In this document: piece by piece, positions 3,063 to 11,765 of the stretch
How positions within the stretch are numbered: the stretch's first letter is position 1
Layout: each line of letters begins with the position of its first letter
Assembly: GCA_030616165.1 (NCBI GenBank)
Contig: JAUWXV010000110.1
Location: 1-11,765 of the forward strand
Length of the DNA stretch: 11,765 nt
Reading direction: 5' to 3'
DNA from: a bacterium
Lineage (GTDB): Bacteria > SM23-31 > JAUVVT01
The notes under the pieces: generated by a model
Databases searched by the model: none
The model's input: only the letters and a program-made list of their open reading frames with translations
Told to the model about the DNA's origin: nothing
Made by a program: the position numbers and the translations under genes

Positions 3063-4712
3063 TTAATATTTAAATACAACCGAAATCCACCATTTTTTCA
3101 AATTTGTAATTTCAGCAAAGTTTAAAAAATCTATTTTGATAGAATCCGACACTTTATAACTTGCTCCAAAGTGATAAGAGGTAAGATTTACCAACTTCCC
3201 TTTCAATTTTGATACTCTCTCTTCGGTAAACATCGGTTTATCTTCTGGATAATATGATTGACCTCCCCCCGAACTGCTGATAAGTGTGTTAGTACTGTCA
3301 GTCATTGTTCTCTTCCAATTTCCATCAAAAGAAATCGGTATCGAAGCATTGGCTCCGAGTCTTAAGGTAAAGTTATTGGTGAGTTTCATTTCCAGGCCGA
3401 CCGGGATAGAAATCATCAATGTATTTGCCTTACCGCGAGTCGCCGTTATTTTATTATCGTTGAAAACATTCTTATATAAAGTTGAATCTCCTTCACCTAA
3501 AAATTGATGAAATTCCTCAGTTCTTCTTCCAGGTCCCTGGTCAAGTTCAAAATTTCCCCATATATACTGGAATTTCAAACCAATGACCGACATACTCTTT
3601 AACCCATCAAAATGCCTTTCAGTTCCAAATCCAAACGTCAGGCTGTTTATACATGCAGTTCCCTCCCCTGAAACTTTATCTTCGATTAAACTTTTTCGAT
3701 AAATCAAAGCACCCCCTTCACTATTTGTAATTGTTGTATCAGCGATAAACTCTCTATTTGTCTTTATATTCAGGGGAAGACGGTAATGAGCAAAATTGAA
3801 AATCCAATTATTCTGATGGAATCTATCAAGCTCTGTATATATTGTTTTATGCCTTAGATTCAAAAAATAGGACTTAATCCCGAGTTCCATATAACCCAGA
3901 TCTTTTTCCTCAAATTTAGTTAGACTTTCATCATTTCCATTAATAAAAGGTTTTCTTAAAACAGGAAAAATCCTGTTCAGATTAATTCCTAATTTCTGGG
4001 GCATCATCCCTCCAGAAATACTTACCTCTCTTTTATCATTTTTGTAAATCTTCCCTACAGCAAAAGATAAAAGATTATTGGGAAATTTAACCTCACCTTT
4101 TTCTTCATCTGTATATGTTCTGACTGCTGTCGGATTATCCAGCAAAGTAGTATCTCTCCTCGCTGACCAGTTTATATTCATCCCTAATTTATCGAAAGAG
4201 ACAATATATCCTATATTTCTGAAGATACCGAGTATAGTAAAACTCTGCCCTGTGAAATCACCTTTAAATATATCAGATGAACGGGTTCTTAAAGCAGGAT
4301 TGGGTTGAAAATCTTCATACATAGCTTCATCTGTAATCTGGAAAGAATGTCCGCTCGATTCCCAAAACCCCCCGATATTGTATCTTTTAAATCCGCCAAC
4401 TATGCCAATTAGATTACTCGGAAAATCGCCGTTTTTGTTTATCTCCGAATTATCCTGTTCAAAAACGGTTGCTTCACCCTTTCCCTGAAGATTACTCAAA
4501 TTCGTGTAGATATATCTCTCTTTATATCTTGAAATGTATGCAGGATTAAAATACAAATCAGAATATAAATCATCCACAAAACCAAAAAGATTTGTCCCGA
4601 GTCCTCTCAACCTGAATGAATATTTGACCATCCCATCTGAAGGGGTATAATAAAATATTACAAATATTAATATCAGAAGAAAAATATACCTATTTATAGA
4701 AATTTTAGACAT
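3063..4712 (-). CDS. Putative outer-membrane beta-barrel protein
   Basis: This 549-residue protein starts at ATG 4712 with only a weak ribosome site (TGGTAA). Residues 1 to about 25 are a signal sequence with a hydrophobic core (YIFLLILIFVIFYY). Just after it comes RLRGLGTNLFGFVDDLYSDL followed by YFNPA near residues 54-58. This resembles the start of FadL/OmpP1- and PorV-like barrels, where an early NPA motif follows the first strand. The remainder is rich in alternating aromatic and polar strands (for example GFGTERHFDG, LGANASIPISF, SYHFGASYKV). It ends ISVVFKY, with a C-terminal aromatic residue as the BAM machinery recognises. There is no helical membrane segment beyond the signal. I infer an outer-membrane channel or assembly barrel; the substrate is unknown. 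It is the first gene of its unit, behind the promoter at 4788-4760 and the terminator that closes the clpC unit. Confidence 0.7.
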   Translation of the reverse strand: MSKISINRYIFLLILIFVIFYYTPSDGMVKYSFRLRGLGTNLFGFVDDLYSDLYFNPAYISRYKERYIYTNLSNLQGKGEATVFEQDNSEINKNGDFPSNLIGIVGGFKRYNIGGFWESSGHSFQITDEAMYEDFQPNPALRTRSSDIFKGDFTGQSFTILGIFRNIGYIVSFDKLGMNINWSARRDTTLLDNPTAVRTYTDEEKGEVKFPNNLLSFAVGKIYKNDKREVSISGGMMPQKLGINLNRIFPVLRKPFINGNDESLTKFEEKDLGYMELGIKSYFLNLRHKTIYTELDRFHQNNWIFNFAHYRLPLNIKTNREFIADTTITNSEGGALIYRKSLIEDKVSGEGTACINSLTFGFGTERHFDGLKSMSVIGLKFQYIWGNFELDQGPGRRTEEFHQFLGEGDSTLYKNVFNDNKITATRGKANTLMISIPVGLEMKLTNNFTLRLGANASIPISFDGNWKRTMTDSTNTLISSSGGGQSYYPEDKPMFTEERVSKLKGKLVNLTSYHFGASYKVSDSIKIDFLNFAEITNLKKWWISVVFKY

Positions 4713-4920: not shown

Positions 4921-4963
4921 AAAAAAAATAAAAAACCCGAAAGATTTTTAAATCTTTCGGGTT
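4921..4963 (-). terminator. Rho-independent terminator of the clpC unit
   Basis: The arms AACCCGAAAGATTT and AAATCTTTCGGGTT (4934-4947 and 4950-4963) are perfect 14-bp complements around two bases. Read on the minus strand the hairpin is followed by a run of T with a single A (4933-4921). This is a textbook intrinsic terminator pointing away from clpC, about 375 bases past its stop codon. On the plus strand there is no T run, so it works in one direction only. Confidence 0.88.
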
Positions 4964-5336: not shown

Positions 5337-7781
5337 TTAATGATTTACTTCAACCTTCTCCTTGCTTATTAAAGAAAAGTGTAATTTCTCGCCTTTTACT
5401 CTTACCTTAACAAGAGAGCCATCAGGAAATCTTCCTTTAAGGATTTCTTCAGCAATGGGGTCTTCGATATATTTTTGAATTGCTCTTCTTAACGGACGGG
5501 CACCACACACTGGGTCAAACCCTTTCTTTGCTATAAATTCTTTGGCACCTAATGTCAATTTGATAACTAAATTCCTATCAGAGAGTTTATCAAGAATCTC
5601 TTTCAGTACCAGGTCTACAATTTTAATCATACTTTTTTTACCAAGGGTTTTAAATATAATTGTATCATCTATCCTGTTAAGGAATTCAGGGTTGAAAATC
5701 CTTTTTACATTTTCCATAATCTTATTTTTCATTTCTTCAAAAGAAGTTGCCTCCGAACTTCCAGTAAATCCAAAACTGGTACCTTTCTTTATATCACGTG
5801 CACCTATATTCGATGTCATTATCACTATTGTATTTTTAAAATCGACCCTTCTGCCCAGACCATCTGTCAATCTTCCATCATCAAAAACCTGCAATAAAAT
5901 ATTAAATACATCTGGATGAGCCTTTTCAATTTCATCCAGAAGGACAACAGAATATGGTTTCCGCCTCACTTTTTCGGTAAGTTGTCCTCCCTCCTCATAT
6001 CCTACATATCCTGGTGGGGCTCCAGTCAGTCTTGAAATTGAAAATTTCTCCATAAACTCCGACATATCGATTCTGACTAATGCCTCTTCATCTTCGAATA
6101 GATACTTTGCCAAAACCCTTGCCAATTCAGTCTTTCCCACACCTGATGGACCTAACAATATGAAAGAACCGATTGGTCTCCTGGGGTCTTTTAGCCCGGC
6201 TCTTGTTCGCTGGATAGCTCTGCAGAGGGTTGTTATTGCCTCATCTTGCCCGATAATGTATTTTTTTAATGCTTTTTCCATATTAAGTAATTTTTCTGAT
6301 TCCGAAACCGCAACCTTCGCAACAGGTATCCCGGTCATCATAGCTACAACTTCGGCTATATCCTTTTCGGTAACCTCAACAACATTATTTTCCTGTGTTT
6401 TCTGCCATTTATCTCTTGCCTTATCAAGTTTTTCTCTGGCTTTTCTTTCAGTATCACGAAGTTCAGCAGCCTTTTCAAATTCTTGAGACTTTACCGCTTT
6501 TTCCTTTATCCTATTCAGTTCCTCAACTTCCTTTTCAAGTTCAATAACCTCCTTTGGAACAACAAGGTTAGCAAGATGAACCCTCGAACCAGTCTCATCA
6601 AGAACATCGATGGCTTTATCTGGTAAAAATTTATCGGTAATATACCTGTTGCTTAATTTAACTGATGCCCCAATAGCCTCATCCGCATATTCAACATTAT
6701 GGTGTTCTTCATACCTGCTTTTCAATCCATGAAGGATTTCCAATGTTTCTTCCACTGTAGGAGGGTCAATCATAATCTTCTGAAATCTTCTTTCCAGCGC
6801 TCCATCCTTCTCAATATATTGTCTATATTCATTTAAGGTAGTTGCACCTATACACTGAAGTTCACCTCTTGCAAGGGCAGGTTTAAACATATTTGAAGCA
6901 TCCAATGACCCTGAGGCACCACCTGCGCCCACTATAGTATGAAGTTCATCAATAAAGAGGATTATATCCCTGTTCTTTTCAAGTTCAGACATCACAGCCT
7001 TCATCCGCTCTTCAAATTGACCGCGATATTTTGTCCCTGCTACAATTGCACCAAGGTCTAAAGTAACAACCCTTTTATCATGCAGTGTCCTGGAAACTTT
7101 CTTCTCTACAATCCTGACTGCCAGCCCTTCTGCAATTGCAGTCTTACCAACTCCTGGTTCTCCTATTAATACAGGATTGTTTTTCTTTCTTCTGCTTAAA
7201 ATCTGAGCCACTCGTTCTATCTCTTCTTCTCTTCCTATAATTGGATCGAGTTTCCCATTTCTTGCCAGTTCTGTTAAATCTCTTCCAAAGTGATCCAAAG
7301 CGGGCGTTTTAACTTTTTTTGTCTTTTCACCTTTATCTTCTAACTGACCCTGGAATATACTCTCAAGTTCCTTTTTTACTGAATCATAATCAACATCAAA
7401 ACTTAAAAGAACCTGAGCTGCGACTCCGTCCTTTTCTTTGCATAAAGAAAGAAGAAGATGCTCTGTGCCAATAATATTTGATTTAAAATTTTTTGCCTCG
7501 ATATACGTCATCTTCAATATTTTCTCAGCCCTTTTGGTAAGGGGAAGATTCCCAATAGTCATAGTATCGGCAGTAGATTTTACCATATCTTCAATCGCCT
7601 TTTTAATCTCATCAAGATCACATCCAAGATTCTTCAGAATCTCAATCGCAACACCCTCACCCTCTCGGATTAATCCGAGAAGGAGGTGCTCCGAACCAAT
7701 ATAATCATGATTTAAGCGTATTGCCTCTTCTCGAGCATATTGGATTACCATTTGTACACGGTGAGAAAAATTGTTTTTCAT
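5337..7781 (-). CDS. clpC: AAA+ unfoldase ClpC, partner of ClpP protease
   Basis: ClpC is a cytoplasmic hexameric ATPase that unfolds substrates and feeds them to ClpP. The 814 residues match the usual length and order. Two Clp N-repeats span 1 to about 145. The first AAA+ module has Walker A GEPGVGKT at 207-214, Walker B D278-E279 and arginine finger region RR at 331-332. A UVR-type coiled middle segment lies near 424-455. The second module has Walker A GPSGVGKT at 544-551, Walker B D616-E617, arginine finger R703 and a GARPLRRAI sensor at 760-768. The tripeptide FGF at 670-672 stands where ClpP-docking VGF/LGF loops occur. E31 and E107, in IGSEH and IGTEH, align with the two glutamates known to hold phosphoarginine in B. 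subtilis ClpC. ATG 7781 is chosen with AAGGGG six bases upstream. It follows mcsB in the same direction after 269 bases and may have its own promoter. Confidence 0.97.
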
Positions 7782-8050: not shown

Positions 8051-9112
8051 TTAAAAATTAATCTTATCTTTAACAATTTCAGCCCTTAAAATATCTCTTT
8101 CTAAAGGAGTAAGATTCTTTCCTGCTAATTTCTGTATATGTGCTGACTGAACAGTTACCATAAGTTCATTCAGAATTTTTCGGTCAATTTTTTTTAACAT
8201 TTTTAATTCTACACCGAGTCTGATAGCAGATAAAAGGCTCATAAATTCAAGTGAAGAAATTATCTTCGCATTTTTCATAATGGCTTTTGCACGATAAACT
8301 TTGTCTTCAATTTTAATTTTTGCATCTTTCAATAATTTATTTCTGGACTCTTTTTCATATTGAATAAACTTTTTCGCAACCTTCTTGATCCTCTCAATAG
8401 TATCTTTTTCCGTAATACCAAGAGTTACTTGATTAGATACCTGAAAAATATTTCCTTGGACATCGGTACCTTCACCATAAAATCCACGCACAGCAATCCC
8501 AGCAGGAACTATTTCCTCTAAAAATTTGTCTAAATTTTTCGTTAATACTATTCCGGGAAGATGGCAGAAAAAAGAAACCCTCAGCCCGTTCCCGGTATTG
8601 GAGGGACAAGCAGTAAGATAGCCCAACTCATCTGAAAAAGCAAAATCAAGCATGGAATTCAACTCATTGTCGACGACTCTAATACTATCCCACGCCGTAT
8701 TTATATCCAGTCCAGACCGAATCCACTGTATTCTCAAATGATCCTCTTCGTTTATCATAATGCAGGATAATTCCCCTTCACTGATAAAAATTGCCCCTGG
8801 TTTATTCAACTTTGCAAAAAAAGGGCTTATCAAATGTCTCTCAACCAGAAATTCTTTATCAAGTTCATTAACGTTGTTTATTTCTAAAAATTTCATACCA
8901 TTAAGAATTTTAGAATTACTAACAGCCCTTTTAACCAATTCAACAACCCTTTCCAATTTTCTCTTATCAGCACGATTGGGAAAAGGCGTATTCTTTAAAT
9001 TCCTTGCAAGTCTTGTTCTACTGCTGATTATAATATCGGAATTTCTCCCCTTTCCATTTAGCCATTCAGAACACTTTGGAATCAATTTGTCAATTTCTAA
9101 TTTATTTAGCAT
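8051..9112 (-). CDS. mcsB: Protein-arginine kinase McsB
   Basis: McsB phosphorylates arginine residues on proteins, marking them for ClpC-ClpP; it belongs to the phosphagen (ATP:guanido) kinase family. From ATG 9112 it has 353 residues, close to the roughly 360 typical of McsB. Visible motifs are the N-terminal DIIISSRTRLARN (26-38), the NEEDH segment (121-125) with an expected catalytic glutamate, the active-site CPSNTGNGLR (169-178) with the conserved Cys169, and GFYGEGT followed by FQVSNQVTLG (210-232). RDILRA at 339-344 fits the RDxxRA phosphoarginine-binding motif of bacterial McsB. The frame continues upstream to a TTG at 9187, but that start would add 25 atypical residues and overlap mcsA by 86 bases, so I prefer ATG 9112. 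This ATG overlaps the mcsA stop by 11 bases and lacks a clear ribosome site, which suggests translational coupling. Confidence 0.95.
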   Translation of the reverse strand: MLNKLEIDKLIPKCSEWLNGKGRNSDIIISSRTRLARNLKNTPFPNRADKRKLERVVELVKRAVSNSKILNGMKFLEINNVNELDKEFLVERHLISPFFAKLNKPGAIFISEGELSCIMINEEDHLRIQWIRSGLDINTAWDSIRVVDNELNSMLDFAFSDELGYLTACPSNTGNGLRVSFFCHLPGIVLTKNLDKFLEEIVPAGIAVRGFYGEGTDVQGNIFQVSNQVTLGITEKDTIERIKKVAKKFIQYEKESRNKLLKDAKIKIEDKVYRAKAIMKNAKIISSLEFMSLLSAIRLGVELKMLKKIDRKILNELMVTVQSAHIQKLAGKNLTPLERDILRAEIVKDKINF

Positions 9113-9605
9113 TTTTTTTAATATATTTAATCTTATCTCTAATTCGTGCTGCTTTCTCAAATTCCTCTTTTTCGATAGCCTTCTCAAGCTCTTTTCTTAA
9201 TTCCGAAATTTCTTTTTCTTCAGGTAAAATCCCTTCTTTTTTTAAAGCAAAATGTCTATTATTTCCATGAATTCTTCGCAAAATTACTTTCAAATCATCT
9301 TTAAAAACCTCGTAACAAAATTGGCAGCCAAGCAGCCCTGAAGTTCTAAACTCTGCATAGCTCAATCCACATTCTTTACAAGTAATATCTTTCTGTGAAA
9401 TTTCATTATCTATAATCTCTTTAATTTTCTCTTCGGCCATCCCAAAAATAATTCCTCCGAGTAAAGAAGGAAACTCCCCCAATGGATTACTGAACCCTTT
9501 TTCTTCTGCACATTTTTTGCAGATATTTATATCTTTTTTCTTGTTATTTATAATGATAGTAAATATTATATTTGCAGGATTCTTATTGCAGATTTGACAA
9601 ATCAC
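9102..9605 (-). CDS. mcsA: McsA, zinc-finger activator of McsB
   Basis: McsA binds and activates the arginine kinase McsB. The 167 residues contain four CxxC pairs (C3/C6, C29/C32, C76/C79, C94/C97), enough for two zinc sites. A C-terminal UVR domain follows (about 134-164, ELRKELEKAIEKEEFEKAA with RIRD), the same helix-hairpin type found in the ClpC middle segment. The start is GTG 9605, inside the lolD stop as GTGA, so the two genes share four bases. A GGGG ribosome site lies 10 bases upstream, at 9619-9616. The first cysteine pair begins at residue 3, so a later start would destroy a zinc site. Length and architecture match McsA of Firmicutes. The neighbours mcsB and clpC make the assignment secure. 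Confidence 0.94.
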   Translation of the reverse strand: MICQICNKNPANIIFTIIINNKKKDINICKKCAEEKGFSNPLGEFPSLLGGIIFGMAEEKIKEIIDNEISQKDITCKECGLSYAEFRTSGLLGCQFCYEVFKDDLKVILRRIHGNNRHFALKKEGILPEEKEISELRKELEKAIEKEEFEKAARIRDKIKYIKKNAK

Positions 9606-10300
9606 TTTTTTATATCCCCTTTTATTTTTCCATCAAATAGTTCTATAATTCTATCTGCCTTCTCCGATAATTTTTCATTATGCGTAACAAGTAGAAAGGT
9701 CTGTTTTTTTTCTTTGCAGAGTGACCATATAATCTCATGAAGGTTTTCACTATTTAAACGATCAAGATTCCCTGTTGGTTCATCTGCAAGCACAATTGAA
9801 GGATTATTTATTAACGCTCTTGCAAAAGCCACCCTCTGAAGTTCTCCACCCGAAAGCTCGCTCGGCTTATGTTCCATCCTTTCACACAAACCTATCTCTC
9901 TCAAAAGTCTTTCAGCCCTGTCTTTAATCTCTTCTCTATTATTTTTCCCTATAATACCGGGCATCATTACATTCTCTAAAGCAGTGAACTCGGGCAGAAG
10001 GTGATGAAACTGAAATATAAAACCAATCTTTTTATTCCTGAAAGATGCAAGTTCATTTTCATTCAATCCTGTTACCTTCTCAGAATCAATATATACCTCA
10101 CCTTTCGTAGGTTTATCAAGCGTTCCTAATATGTTTAAAAGTGTGCTCTTTCCAACACCAGAAGGTCCTATTATACAAATAATCTCTCCTCTCTTTACGT
10201 CAAAAGTTATCCTTTTCAATACCTCTAACTCATTTTTCCCAATAAAATAATTTTTGTATATATCCCTGACAGAAACTACATAATTTTTTCCGGAATCCAA
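9602..10300 (-). CDS. lolD: Lipoprotein-release ABC transporter ATPase LolD
   Basis: LolD powers the LolC/LolE permease, which lifts lipoproteins out of the inner membrane and hands them to LolA. From TTG 10300 the protein has 232 residues. Motifs are Walker A GPSGVGKST (45-53), Q-loop Q97, signature LSGGE (149-153), Walker B ending D173-E174, and switch histidine H207 in VTHNE. The stretch FQFHHLLPEFTALENV (about 96-111) is nearly the same as that of E. coli LolD and argues for LolD over FtsE or MacB. Start choice: TTG 10300 has GGAG six bases upstream, while the more distal TTG 10312 has no ribosome site, so 236 residues is the alternative. The gene follows the permease after 69 bases and its TGA overlaps the mcsA GTG, so lolD and mcsA must share a transcript. 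Confidence 0.93.
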   Translation of the reverse strand: MDSGKNYVVSVRDIYKNYFIGKNELEVLKRITFDVKRGEIICIIGPSGVGKSTLLNILGTLDKPTKGEVYIDSEKVTGLNENELASFRNKKIGFIFQFHHLLPEFTALENVMMPGIIGKNNREEIKDRAERLLREIGLCERMEHKPSELSGGELQRVAFARALINNPSIVLADEPTGNLDRLNSENLHEIIWSLCKEKKQTFLLVTHNEKLSEKADRIIELFDGKIKGDIKK

Positions 10301-10369
10301 ATTAAACTCCAAACTTATTTTTCAGGTAACCTTATTATTAACCTGCTTATTATTTCATACTTATTCATT

Positions 10370-11584
10370 TCACTCATATCTTATAGCTTCTACTGGATTT
10401 AGTTGGGCTGCTTTCCAAGCAGGATATAATGTTGAAAAAAAGCAGATTAAAACTGCTATAAAAAAAACAGAAATAATATCCATTAACCTTATATCTACAG
10501 GCAGATAATCTATAACGTAAGTATCGGTTGGTAATGGAAAATACCTATATTCTACCTGAAGCCAGCACAATATAAATCCTACCAGCGTTCCTGTAATTAT
10601 TCCAATAGATGCGATAATCCCCCCCTCTAATACAAAAATATTCATTATTTTCCTTGAAGTTGCGCCCATAGACTTAAGAATTCCTATTTCTCTTTTCTTT
10701 TCCATTACAAGCATTATAAGAGAACTAATAATATTAAAGGCGGCAACAAGAATTATAAGGCTCAAGACAATATTTGCAGCAAGCCTTTCTATCTTCATTG
10801 ACGAAAAGAGTGTTTTATGAAGATCATACCAGGTTTTTACAATAAAATTTTCAGACAGAGATTTTCTGATATTTACCGCAGTGCGGTCGATATAATTCTG
10901 GTTTACAGATTTTATTTCAAGCCCAGAAACATTCTCTCCAAATAGAAAAAGCCTTTGAGCATCAGAAAGAGAAATCAATGCATAATTATCATACTGAGTA
11001 AGTTTTATGGAGAAGTAACCCTCCACTCTGAATTTCATAATCTCGGGCATAGAATAAATACCACCTTTCGTCCTCGAACCCATAACCATAACGGTATCTC
11101 CAAGTCCAAGAAAAAGATTATCTGCAAGCATTCGGGCTAAAATTATCCCGGGAAGAACTCCATCCCTTTTCGATTTATCTTCAAGATAATGTTCACTGCT
11201 GTAAACTATATTTTCTCTTATTTTATTTACCTCTTCAATTTTTTTTATATCTATACCCTTGATGAATGTTCCCCTCTCGCCATACTCCGAGGTCAACATC
11301 CCTTTTCCAAGAATAAACGGAGAAACGCCTGCAACACCCTCTATACCTCTTATCTTCTTTTCAATTTCTTTCCAATTTTCCATCCCCGCGACGTTGTTTG
11401 TAGTAACTCTAATATGGCTGTCAAAATCAAGAAACATATCCTTTACAAGATTCCCGAACCCGTTCAGCACCGAAAGGGAAATAATAAGACAGGAAACACC
11501 CAAAAAAATCCCAATTACAGAAATAAGATTCCCTGTCTTTTTTAATCCAAGATACCTTTTCGCCACCGAAATCTCAAATTTCAT
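10370..11584 (-). CDS. LolC/LolE-family lipoprotein-release permease
   Basis: This is the membrane subunit of a Lol-type ABC exporter. The 404 residues show the family layout: an N-terminal helix (about 20-40, ISVIGIFLGVSCLIISLSVL then NGF), a large periplasmic domain (about 42-265), and three C-terminal helices (about 269-292, 316-340, 368-388). EKKREIGILKSMGA (295-308) is the coupling segment that contacts the ATPase. It ends AWKAAQLNPVEAIRYE, the usual FtsX/LolC ending. The stretch with LPTDTYVIDYLPV (351-363) is typical of LolC/E rather than MacB. LolC and LolE are hard to tell apart here, so no symbol is given; a second related gene ends just upstream at 11727. ATG 11584 is the only standard start, but its GAGGAG ribosome site (11609-11604) lies 19 bases away, unusually far. 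Confidence 0.92.
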   Translation of the reverse strand: MKFEISVAKRYLGLKKTGNLISVIGIFLGVSCLIISLSVLNGFGNLVKDMFLDFDSHIRVTTNNVAGMENWKEIEKKIRGIEGVAGVSPFILGKGMLTSEYGERGTFIKGIDIKKIEEVNKIRENIVYSSEHYLEDKSKRDGVLPGIILARMLADNLFLGLGDTVMVMGSRTKGGIYSMPEIMKFRVEGYFSIKLTQYDNYALISLSDAQRLFLFGENVSGLEIKSVNQNYIDRTAVNIRKSLSENFIVKTWYDLHKTLFSSMKIERLAANIVLSLIILVAAFNIISSLIMLVMEKKREIGILKSMGATSRKIMNIFVLEGGIIASIGIITGTLVGFILCWLQVEYRYFPLPTDTYVIDYLPVDIRLMDIISVFFIAVLICFFSTLYPAWKAAQLNPVEAIRYE

Positions 11585-11617
11585 AATAAAAACTTAGTAT
11601 TATCTCCTCAGTAAATA

Positions 11618-11645
11618 ACTATATAAAGATTTACCCATTTCTCAA
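11618..11645 (-). promoter_or_regulatory. Promoter for the lolC/E-lolD-mcsA-mcsB unit
   Basis: TTGAGA (11645-11640, five of six) and TATAGT (11623-11618, five of six) are separated by 16 bases on the minus strand. Transcription would begin near 11611, about 27 bases before ATG 11584. The -35 lies wholly inside one arm of the palindrome at 11637-11671. This suggests the downstream genes can be expressed separately from the upstream permease gene. Confidence 0.55.
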
Positions 11646-11671
11646 TCCGTGCTTTGCACGGATTGAGAAAT
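11637..11671. repeat. 16-bp perfect palindrome upstream of the permease gene
   Basis: The arms (11637-11652 and 11656-11671) are perfect 16-bp complements around TTT, with core CAATCCGTGC / GCACGGATTG. No T run follows on either strand, so it is not a simple terminator. The left arm (lower coordinates) contains the -35 of the candidate promoter, so the element may be an operator, or an extragenic palindromic repeat that happens to supply a -35. Confidence 0.7.
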
Positions 11672-11689
11672 AAGTTAAAGTTTTCTTTG

Positions 11690-11715
11690 TTACTTTCTTT
11701 TTCAAAAGAAAGTAA
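11690..11715. repeat. 12-bp perfect palindrome TTACTTTCTTTT / AAAAGAAAGTAA
   Basis: Two perfect 12-bp arms surround TC, between the upstream permease stop and the 11637-11671 palindrome. On the minus strand there is a T run before the hairpin, not after it, so it does not look like a working terminator for the upstream gene. Its outer heptamers (TTACTTT, AAAGTAA) are also the outer ends of the inverted repeat before clpC. Confidence 0.6.
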
Positions 11716-11726
11716 AGAAAAAAACA

Positions 11727-11765
11727 TCACTCATATCTTATGGCATCTGTTGGCAGAAGCCTTGA
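11727..11765 (-). CDS. C-terminal end of a second LolC/E- or FtsX-type permease
   Basis: Reading the minus strand from 11765 gives SRLLPTDAIRYE and a TGA stop at 11729-11727. The LxPTDAIRYE ending is the conserved C-terminus of LolC/LolE and related FtsX-type permeases, and matches VEAIRYE at the end of the neighbouring 404-residue permease. The last codons are also nearly identical in DNA (ATAAGATATGAGTGA in both). Only 13 codons lie inside the window. A LolC-LolE pair flanking one LolD is the likely arrangement, but an unrelated MacB-like permease cannot be excluded. Confidence 0.75.
   Translation of the reverse strand, partial: SRLLPTDAIRYE

Follow-up and report, generated by a model that had tools for sequence, protein, structure and literature searches.

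Lipoprotein-export genes occupy the ctsR position ahead of mcsA-mcsB-clpC in a putatively two-membrane bacterium

To our knowledge, descriptions of McsB and phosphoarginine tagging come nearly all from Gram-positive bacteria and centre on the repressor CtsR. The closest described system is the ctsR-mcsA-mcsB-clpC operon of the Bacillota, known in Bacillus subtilis as the clpC operon; McsB, ClpC and ClpP together form a phosphoarginine (pArg) degradation pathway (PMC8370763). The locus examined here matches that operon in the order, strand and tight spacing of mcsA-mcsB-clpC and in its apparently intact kinase and pArg residues, but it is without ctsR, carries lolF-lolD in the corresponding slot, has no radA-disA downstream and belongs to a host that appears to have two membranes. 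With the lolF-lolD operon of the Gracilicutes (PMC11784454) it shares a permease gene followed by lolD, an arrangement often found after lysS, whereas here the run continues into mcsA-mcsB-clpC, and in many lineages into bamA, and the window's class has two permease genes in tandem. A third comparison is with chlamydiae, two-membrane bacteria that have McsAB but not the Bacillota operon; unlike the present case, their mcsAB genes stand apart from clpC, with tRNA genes on their flanks (PMC10128030). All of the parts are known families, and it is the gene order and its alternation with ctsR that are unreported in the searchable literature. Searches combining lolD, mcsA, mcsB and clpC, mcsB with lipoprotein-releasing, or four of the terms lolD, lysS, bamA, gene cluster and clpC returned no paper, most subscription papers and preprints lying outside their reach.

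The window, by which we mean the whole 11,765-nucleotide stretch analysed, carries on its minus strand the end of a LolC/E-type permease gene, a second permease gene, lolD, mcsA, mcsB, clpC and a terminator-like hairpin, in that order (Table 1). The lolD stop codon TGA (9604-9602) and the mcsA start codon GTG (9605-9603) are interlocked, and the sequence GGGGA about 10 bases upstream of the GTG could act as a ribosome-binding site. The mcsA stop codon ends at 9102, and although the longest mcsB reading frame opens with TTG at 9187, alignment favours the ATG at 9112; both overlaps reported in the preliminary description are thus confirmed. A spacing of 269 bases, with no terminator-like site, separates mcsB from clpC, which may have its own promoter in this gap. 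As clpC lies this far past mcsB and a terminator-like hairpin stands at 4963-4934, the run continues on the clpC side beyond the edge of the region first studied. A search for known RNA elements acting on the run gave none, and a promoter consensus scan of the region gave 36 matches against 25.6 expected.

Table 1. Positions of the features of the lolF-lolD-mcsA-mcsB-clpC run in the window
Feature	Position	Strand	Basis or remark
Second LolC/E (LolF-type) permease, C-terminus only	11727..11765	-	reads SRLLPTDAIRYE followed by the stop; contig end cuts gene
Promoter-like site upstream of permease gene, TTGAGA-16-TATAGT	11618..11645	-	consensus scan, weak evidence
LolC/E (LolF-type) lipoprotein-releasing permease	10370..11584	-	TIGR02212, FtsX and MacB_PCD
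lolD, lipoprotein-export ATPase; exact start uncertain	9602..10312	-	TIGR02211 best match
GTGA common to lolD stop and mcsA start	9602..9605	-	direct reading
mcsA, arginine-kinase activator	9102..9605	-	NF053706, UVR PF02151, alignment
11 bases shared by the end of mcsA and the start of mcsB	9102..9112	-	direct reading, recomputed as -11
mcsB, protein arginine kinase	8051..9112	-	NF002194, residue alignment
clpC, AAA+ unfoldase	5337..7781	-	Clp_N, two AAA domains, UVR, D2-small
Intrinsic-terminator-like hairpin and T tract downstream of clpC	4934..4963	-	13 pairs, tail TTTTATTTTT

The gene identities rest on profile matches of differing strength. Both Lol components fall below the strict cut-offs of their best-matching families, the complete permease with TIGR02212 (E 4.2e-87, 292.7 bits, cut-off 362) and LolD with TIGR02211 (E 1.1e-86, 289.9 bits, cut-off 308); the FtsX and MacB_PCD Pfam domains of the permease are above cut-off. 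McsA is likewise below the NF053706 threshold (E 2.2e-39, 135 bits, cut-off 210), while its UVR motif passes and the alignment contains four CxxC motifs. McsB passes NF002194 (E 7e-124, 413.4 bits, cut-off 385) and is under threshold for NF053707 (385, cut-off 500). ClpC has two N-domain repeats, two AAA domains, a UVR middle motif and a D2-small domain, and scores 1321 bits against a ClpC profile built in this analysis.

By alignment, the kinase and pArg-site residues of the window's McsB are intact. The catalytic columns E, E, C and E equal those of a Bacillaceae McsB (motifs NEEDH, CPTN/CPSN and YGEG), and the stretch ERDILRA aligns with HERDIRRA, retaining the equivalents of Arg337, Asp338 and Arg341, which bind phosphoarginine in the allosteric pocket of B. 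subtilis McsB (PMC8370763). Depending on the position, these catalytic and pArg-site residues are kept in 39 to 49 of 49 lol-type loci. The residues Glu32 and Glu106 of ClpC, which we take to be phosphoarginine-binding sites, were dropped as a mark of phosphoarginine recognition; they say little on the matter because they are equally conserved in genomes without McsB. The eraser of the modification is uncertain, since neither of the two low-molecular-weight phosphatases of the genome has a YwlE-type threonine, one of them reading CTGNVCRS in place of CTGNTCRS, presumably the YwlE signature.

The window's own genome (3.74 Mb in 343 contigs, 90% complete) has no match to PF05848, the profile searched for CtsR, which at this completeness leaves a small chance of a missed ctsR. 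It does contain ClpP, several Omp85 proteins and a LolA (C227; PF03548, 33.7 bits, cut-off 23.6), a gene set that suggests a two-membrane host equipped with a Lol pathway and ClpCP but lacking the classical repressor. The suggestion that Lol genes stand in the place of ctsR is borne out by two loci of other genomes (L217 in G146 and L224 in G283), which read lysS-ctsR-mcsA-mcsB-clpC-radA, ctsR lying some 75 bases after lysS. Because the left anchor lysS and the right anchor mcsA-mcsB-clpC are common to both types, ctsR occupies the exact position of lolF-lolD. The McsB-like proteins of these two loci score low, and the one aligned, from L217, has lost its N-terminal region, both glutamates of EEDH, the catalytic cysteine and the pArg motif; judged from its residues, it is perhaps a dead kinase kept as an adaptor or repressor partner.

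The survey took in 386 genomes from 258 families, sampled around the window and for the most part distant from it. McsB was detected in 139 of them, about a third (NF053707, E<=1e-15), LolCE in 298 (E<=1e-40) and CtsR in seven. LolCE is absent from six of the seven CtsR genomes compared with 82 of the 379 others (Fisher p 0.0007, a generous value since the genomes are related), yet four of the seven have Omp85. The ctsR context therefore tracks the absence of Lol rather than that of an outer membrane, in agreement with a review in which terrabacterial diderms are mostly without Lol (PMC11784454).

The possibility that the arrangement is a local oddity of a single metagenome-assembled contig was rejected, as three genomes of the same class have it. 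The order prfB-...-lysS-lolF-lolF-lolD-mcsA-mcsB is found in G001, of the same family, and in G004, where clpC comes next, and both share the tandem LolCE pair and, with others, the 4-base lolD-mcsA overlap; G002 has the same order with an 80-base lolD-mcsA gap. Two further genomes (G003, G005) have no McsB match and are uninformative, their LolCE genes being at contig ends. Close relatives thus keep lolD and mcsA together, as the coupling proposed in the preliminary description would have it. Two tandem LolC/E-type permease genes before lolD, as in L102 and L105, mark the window's class; elsewhere a single LolF is usual.

For the wider survey approximately one McsB locus per family was taken (89 families, a few weak-scoring ones omitted), 86 of which have a context uncut by a contig end. 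Neighbouring genes were mapped with profiles made from clusters at the 80 closest McsB loci that come from named genomes (the named loci); these clusters were identified as LysS, RadA, DisA, IspD, an IlvE-like aminotransferase, MlaE, MlaD, a PrfB-type release factor, Omp85/BamA and CtsR. A lolD gene lies upstream of the mcs genes in 51 of the 86 families, directly in 37, past ilvE in 11 and within 3.5 kb in three, the remaining contexts being ilvE alone (9), ctsR (5) or other genes (21). Where lolD is directly adjacent (39 loci), the downstream side has clpC in 35 and bamA in 18 and the upstream side has lysS in 29; the complete string prfB-lysS-lolF-lolD-mcsA-mcsB-clpC-bamA is present in L111, L116, L152, L166, L167, L179, L194, L213 and others. 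The two genes overlap in 17 of the 35 cases that could be measured, and with a joint that recurs in 37 families chance overlap was rejected. Within the named loci, ctsR is found in all 42 of the Bacillota, lolD-mcsA in all those of Zixibacteria (4), Latescibacterota (1) and Fibrobacterota (1), and lolD-ilvE-mcsA in 19 of the 20 of Omnitrophota, the 20th being cut by a contig end; lolD is not a neighbour in those of Planctomycetota, Atribacterota, Verrucomicrobiota, Kiritimatiellota and Armatimonadota. The lolD-mcsA gene order is old and widespread.

Several variants of the locus were observed in the same survey. The branched-chain aminotransferase-like (ilvE-type) gene between lolD and mcsA occurs in L023-L059 (Omnitrophota), L155, L163, L214 and others, and L260 and L261 have such a gene between lolD and clpC with mcsAB absent. 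Loci L163, L210 and L025, of the Omnitrophota type, have Mla (lipid transport) genes together with radA, ispD or a PIN/TRAM-type gene downstream of clpC, and this type joins Firmicutes-like downstream genes to outer-membrane genes. Two loci (L118 in G035, L200 in G240) read lolD-mcsB-clpC-bamA, with a divergent McsB and no recognisable mcsA. McsB frames in L128 (G151) and at G241:C36:17799-18800 contain one and two in-frame TAG codons, respectively, and are pseudogenes, errors or cases of a recoded stop.

Our preferred reading, which we hold to be probable, is that the window is part of an ancient envelope-building supercluster of two-membrane bacteria, prfB-lysS-lolF-lolD-(mcsA-mcsB)-clpC-bamA, containing a CtsR-free McsA/McsB/ClpC module that is co-transcribed with Lol. 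A single transcript would carry lolF-lolD-mcsA-mcsB and probably clpC, the McsA/McsB/ClpC quality-control module having lipoprotein export on one side and the assembly of outer-membrane proteins on the other. Misfolded proteins of the cytosol would be phosphorylated on arginine by McsB together with McsA and then degraded by ClpCP, CtsR not being involved. Expression would then be expected to follow the growth of the envelope instead of being switched by CtsR on heat shock. As to the benefit, our best guess is that the export machinery and its cargo would be made together with the protease for unexported precursors.

The strongest competing account, possible though on balance unlikely, is that the housekeeping string prfB, lysS, lolF, lolD, clpC and bamA has been kept by descent and common transcription needs, with mcsAB near lolD through clpC and no function joining phosphoarginine to Lol. 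The string does hold translation genes unrelated to either process, and a separate gene, ilvE, is tolerated between lolD and mcsA in Omnitrophota loci. The median start-to-stop gap of lolD-mcsA (2) is close to those of mcsA-mcsB (-1), lolF-lolD (6) and lysS-lolF (7), so that lysS-lolF-lolD-mcsA-mcsB is one tight block in which the lolD-mcsA joint is not unusual; the gaps further out are wider (mcsB-clpC 55, clpC-bamA 92, prfB-lysS 93). Moreover, at 40 loci without McsB, picked by strongest LolCE score and so not random, clpC follows lolD in 14 (two via ilvE) and bamA follows it directly in 10. That clpC holds the place after lolD without mcsAB argues against a bond specific to the arginine kinase. 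Set against this account, the order is kept over very divergent phyla, often with start and stop overlapped, which usually means selection for co-expression, and outside Bacillota lolD is the commonest neighbour of mcsAB-clpC among the gene families mapped.

The preliminary description had gone further and linked phosphoarginine marking with lipoprotein traffic, perhaps as one stress response. On this account the targets that McsB would mark for ClpCP are components of Lol, lipoprotein precursors that have stalled, or a regulator of envelope stress. The gene order and overlaps, together with the occurrence of ctsR where LolCE rather than the outer membrane is lacking, are consistent with such a dedicated pathway. 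However, McsAB is cytosolic whereas the cargo of Lol lies on the periplasmic side, the linkage of clpC and lolD occurs without McsAB, other joints of the block are as tight as that of lolD and mcsA, and the window yielded no CIRCE element. The proposed link is thus not supported, and while a joint Lol/McsAB envelope-stress response is possible, we consider the dedicated pathway improbable.

The evolutionary relationships were approached through a quick LG+G4 tree of McsB and ClpC from 84 loci, placed on a midpoint root, so that the root itself is not inferred. On this tree the deepest split has lolD loci on either side, the ctsR loci of the Bacillota group with Atribacterota in a single clade, and the window belongs to a starred set of 16 rows of which 15 are lolD-adjacent. 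That a McsAB-ClpC cassette landed beside lolD by horizontal transfer, for which the acquisition suggested by the tRNA genes around chlamydial mcsAB (PMC10128030) and the patchy occurrence of McsB could be cited, is highly improbable, since lolD-adjacent loci cluster strongly on the tree (9 changes against 26.6 in shuffles), named phyla stay together and the insertion point is identical each time. The lol/ctsR state needs two changes; two long branches (L120, L193) meet on the tree, and one of these changes may be false. Given the midpoint root, ctsR may have been the first occupant of the slot. More speculatively, and in our estimation unlikely, phosphoarginine-ClpCP was first a CtsR-free quality control of envelope precursors within the Lol-Bam supercluster, and came under the heat-shock control of CtsR later, when the forerunners of Bacillota and comparable lineages lost the Lol genes from the slot.

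In the sampled genomes, McsB is mostly found without CtsR and mostly beside genes for lipoprotein export and outer-membrane assembly. A role of arginine phosphorylation outside CtsR thereby becomes testable in two-membrane lineages, and the horizontal origin suggested for chlamydial mcsAB need not be the general case. The alternation of ctsR with lolF-lolD after lysS provides a gene-order clue to the diderm/monoderm transition.

Three further features of the window were noted. A near-perfect hairpin (CTCAATCCGTGC..GCACGGATTGAG) lies between both permease genes at 11633-11675; its 27-base core has one further exact copy in the same genome (C261), and it may be a small repeat element. A protein of 606 residues encoded at 1105-2925 contains a region resembling FlgT_C and, after a membrane segment, an acidic tail at its C-terminus. 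The 549-residue protein encoded at 3063-4712 has no Pfam or NCBIfam match and is possibly an outer-membrane protein; a homologue lies downstream of clpC in G001 (L103).
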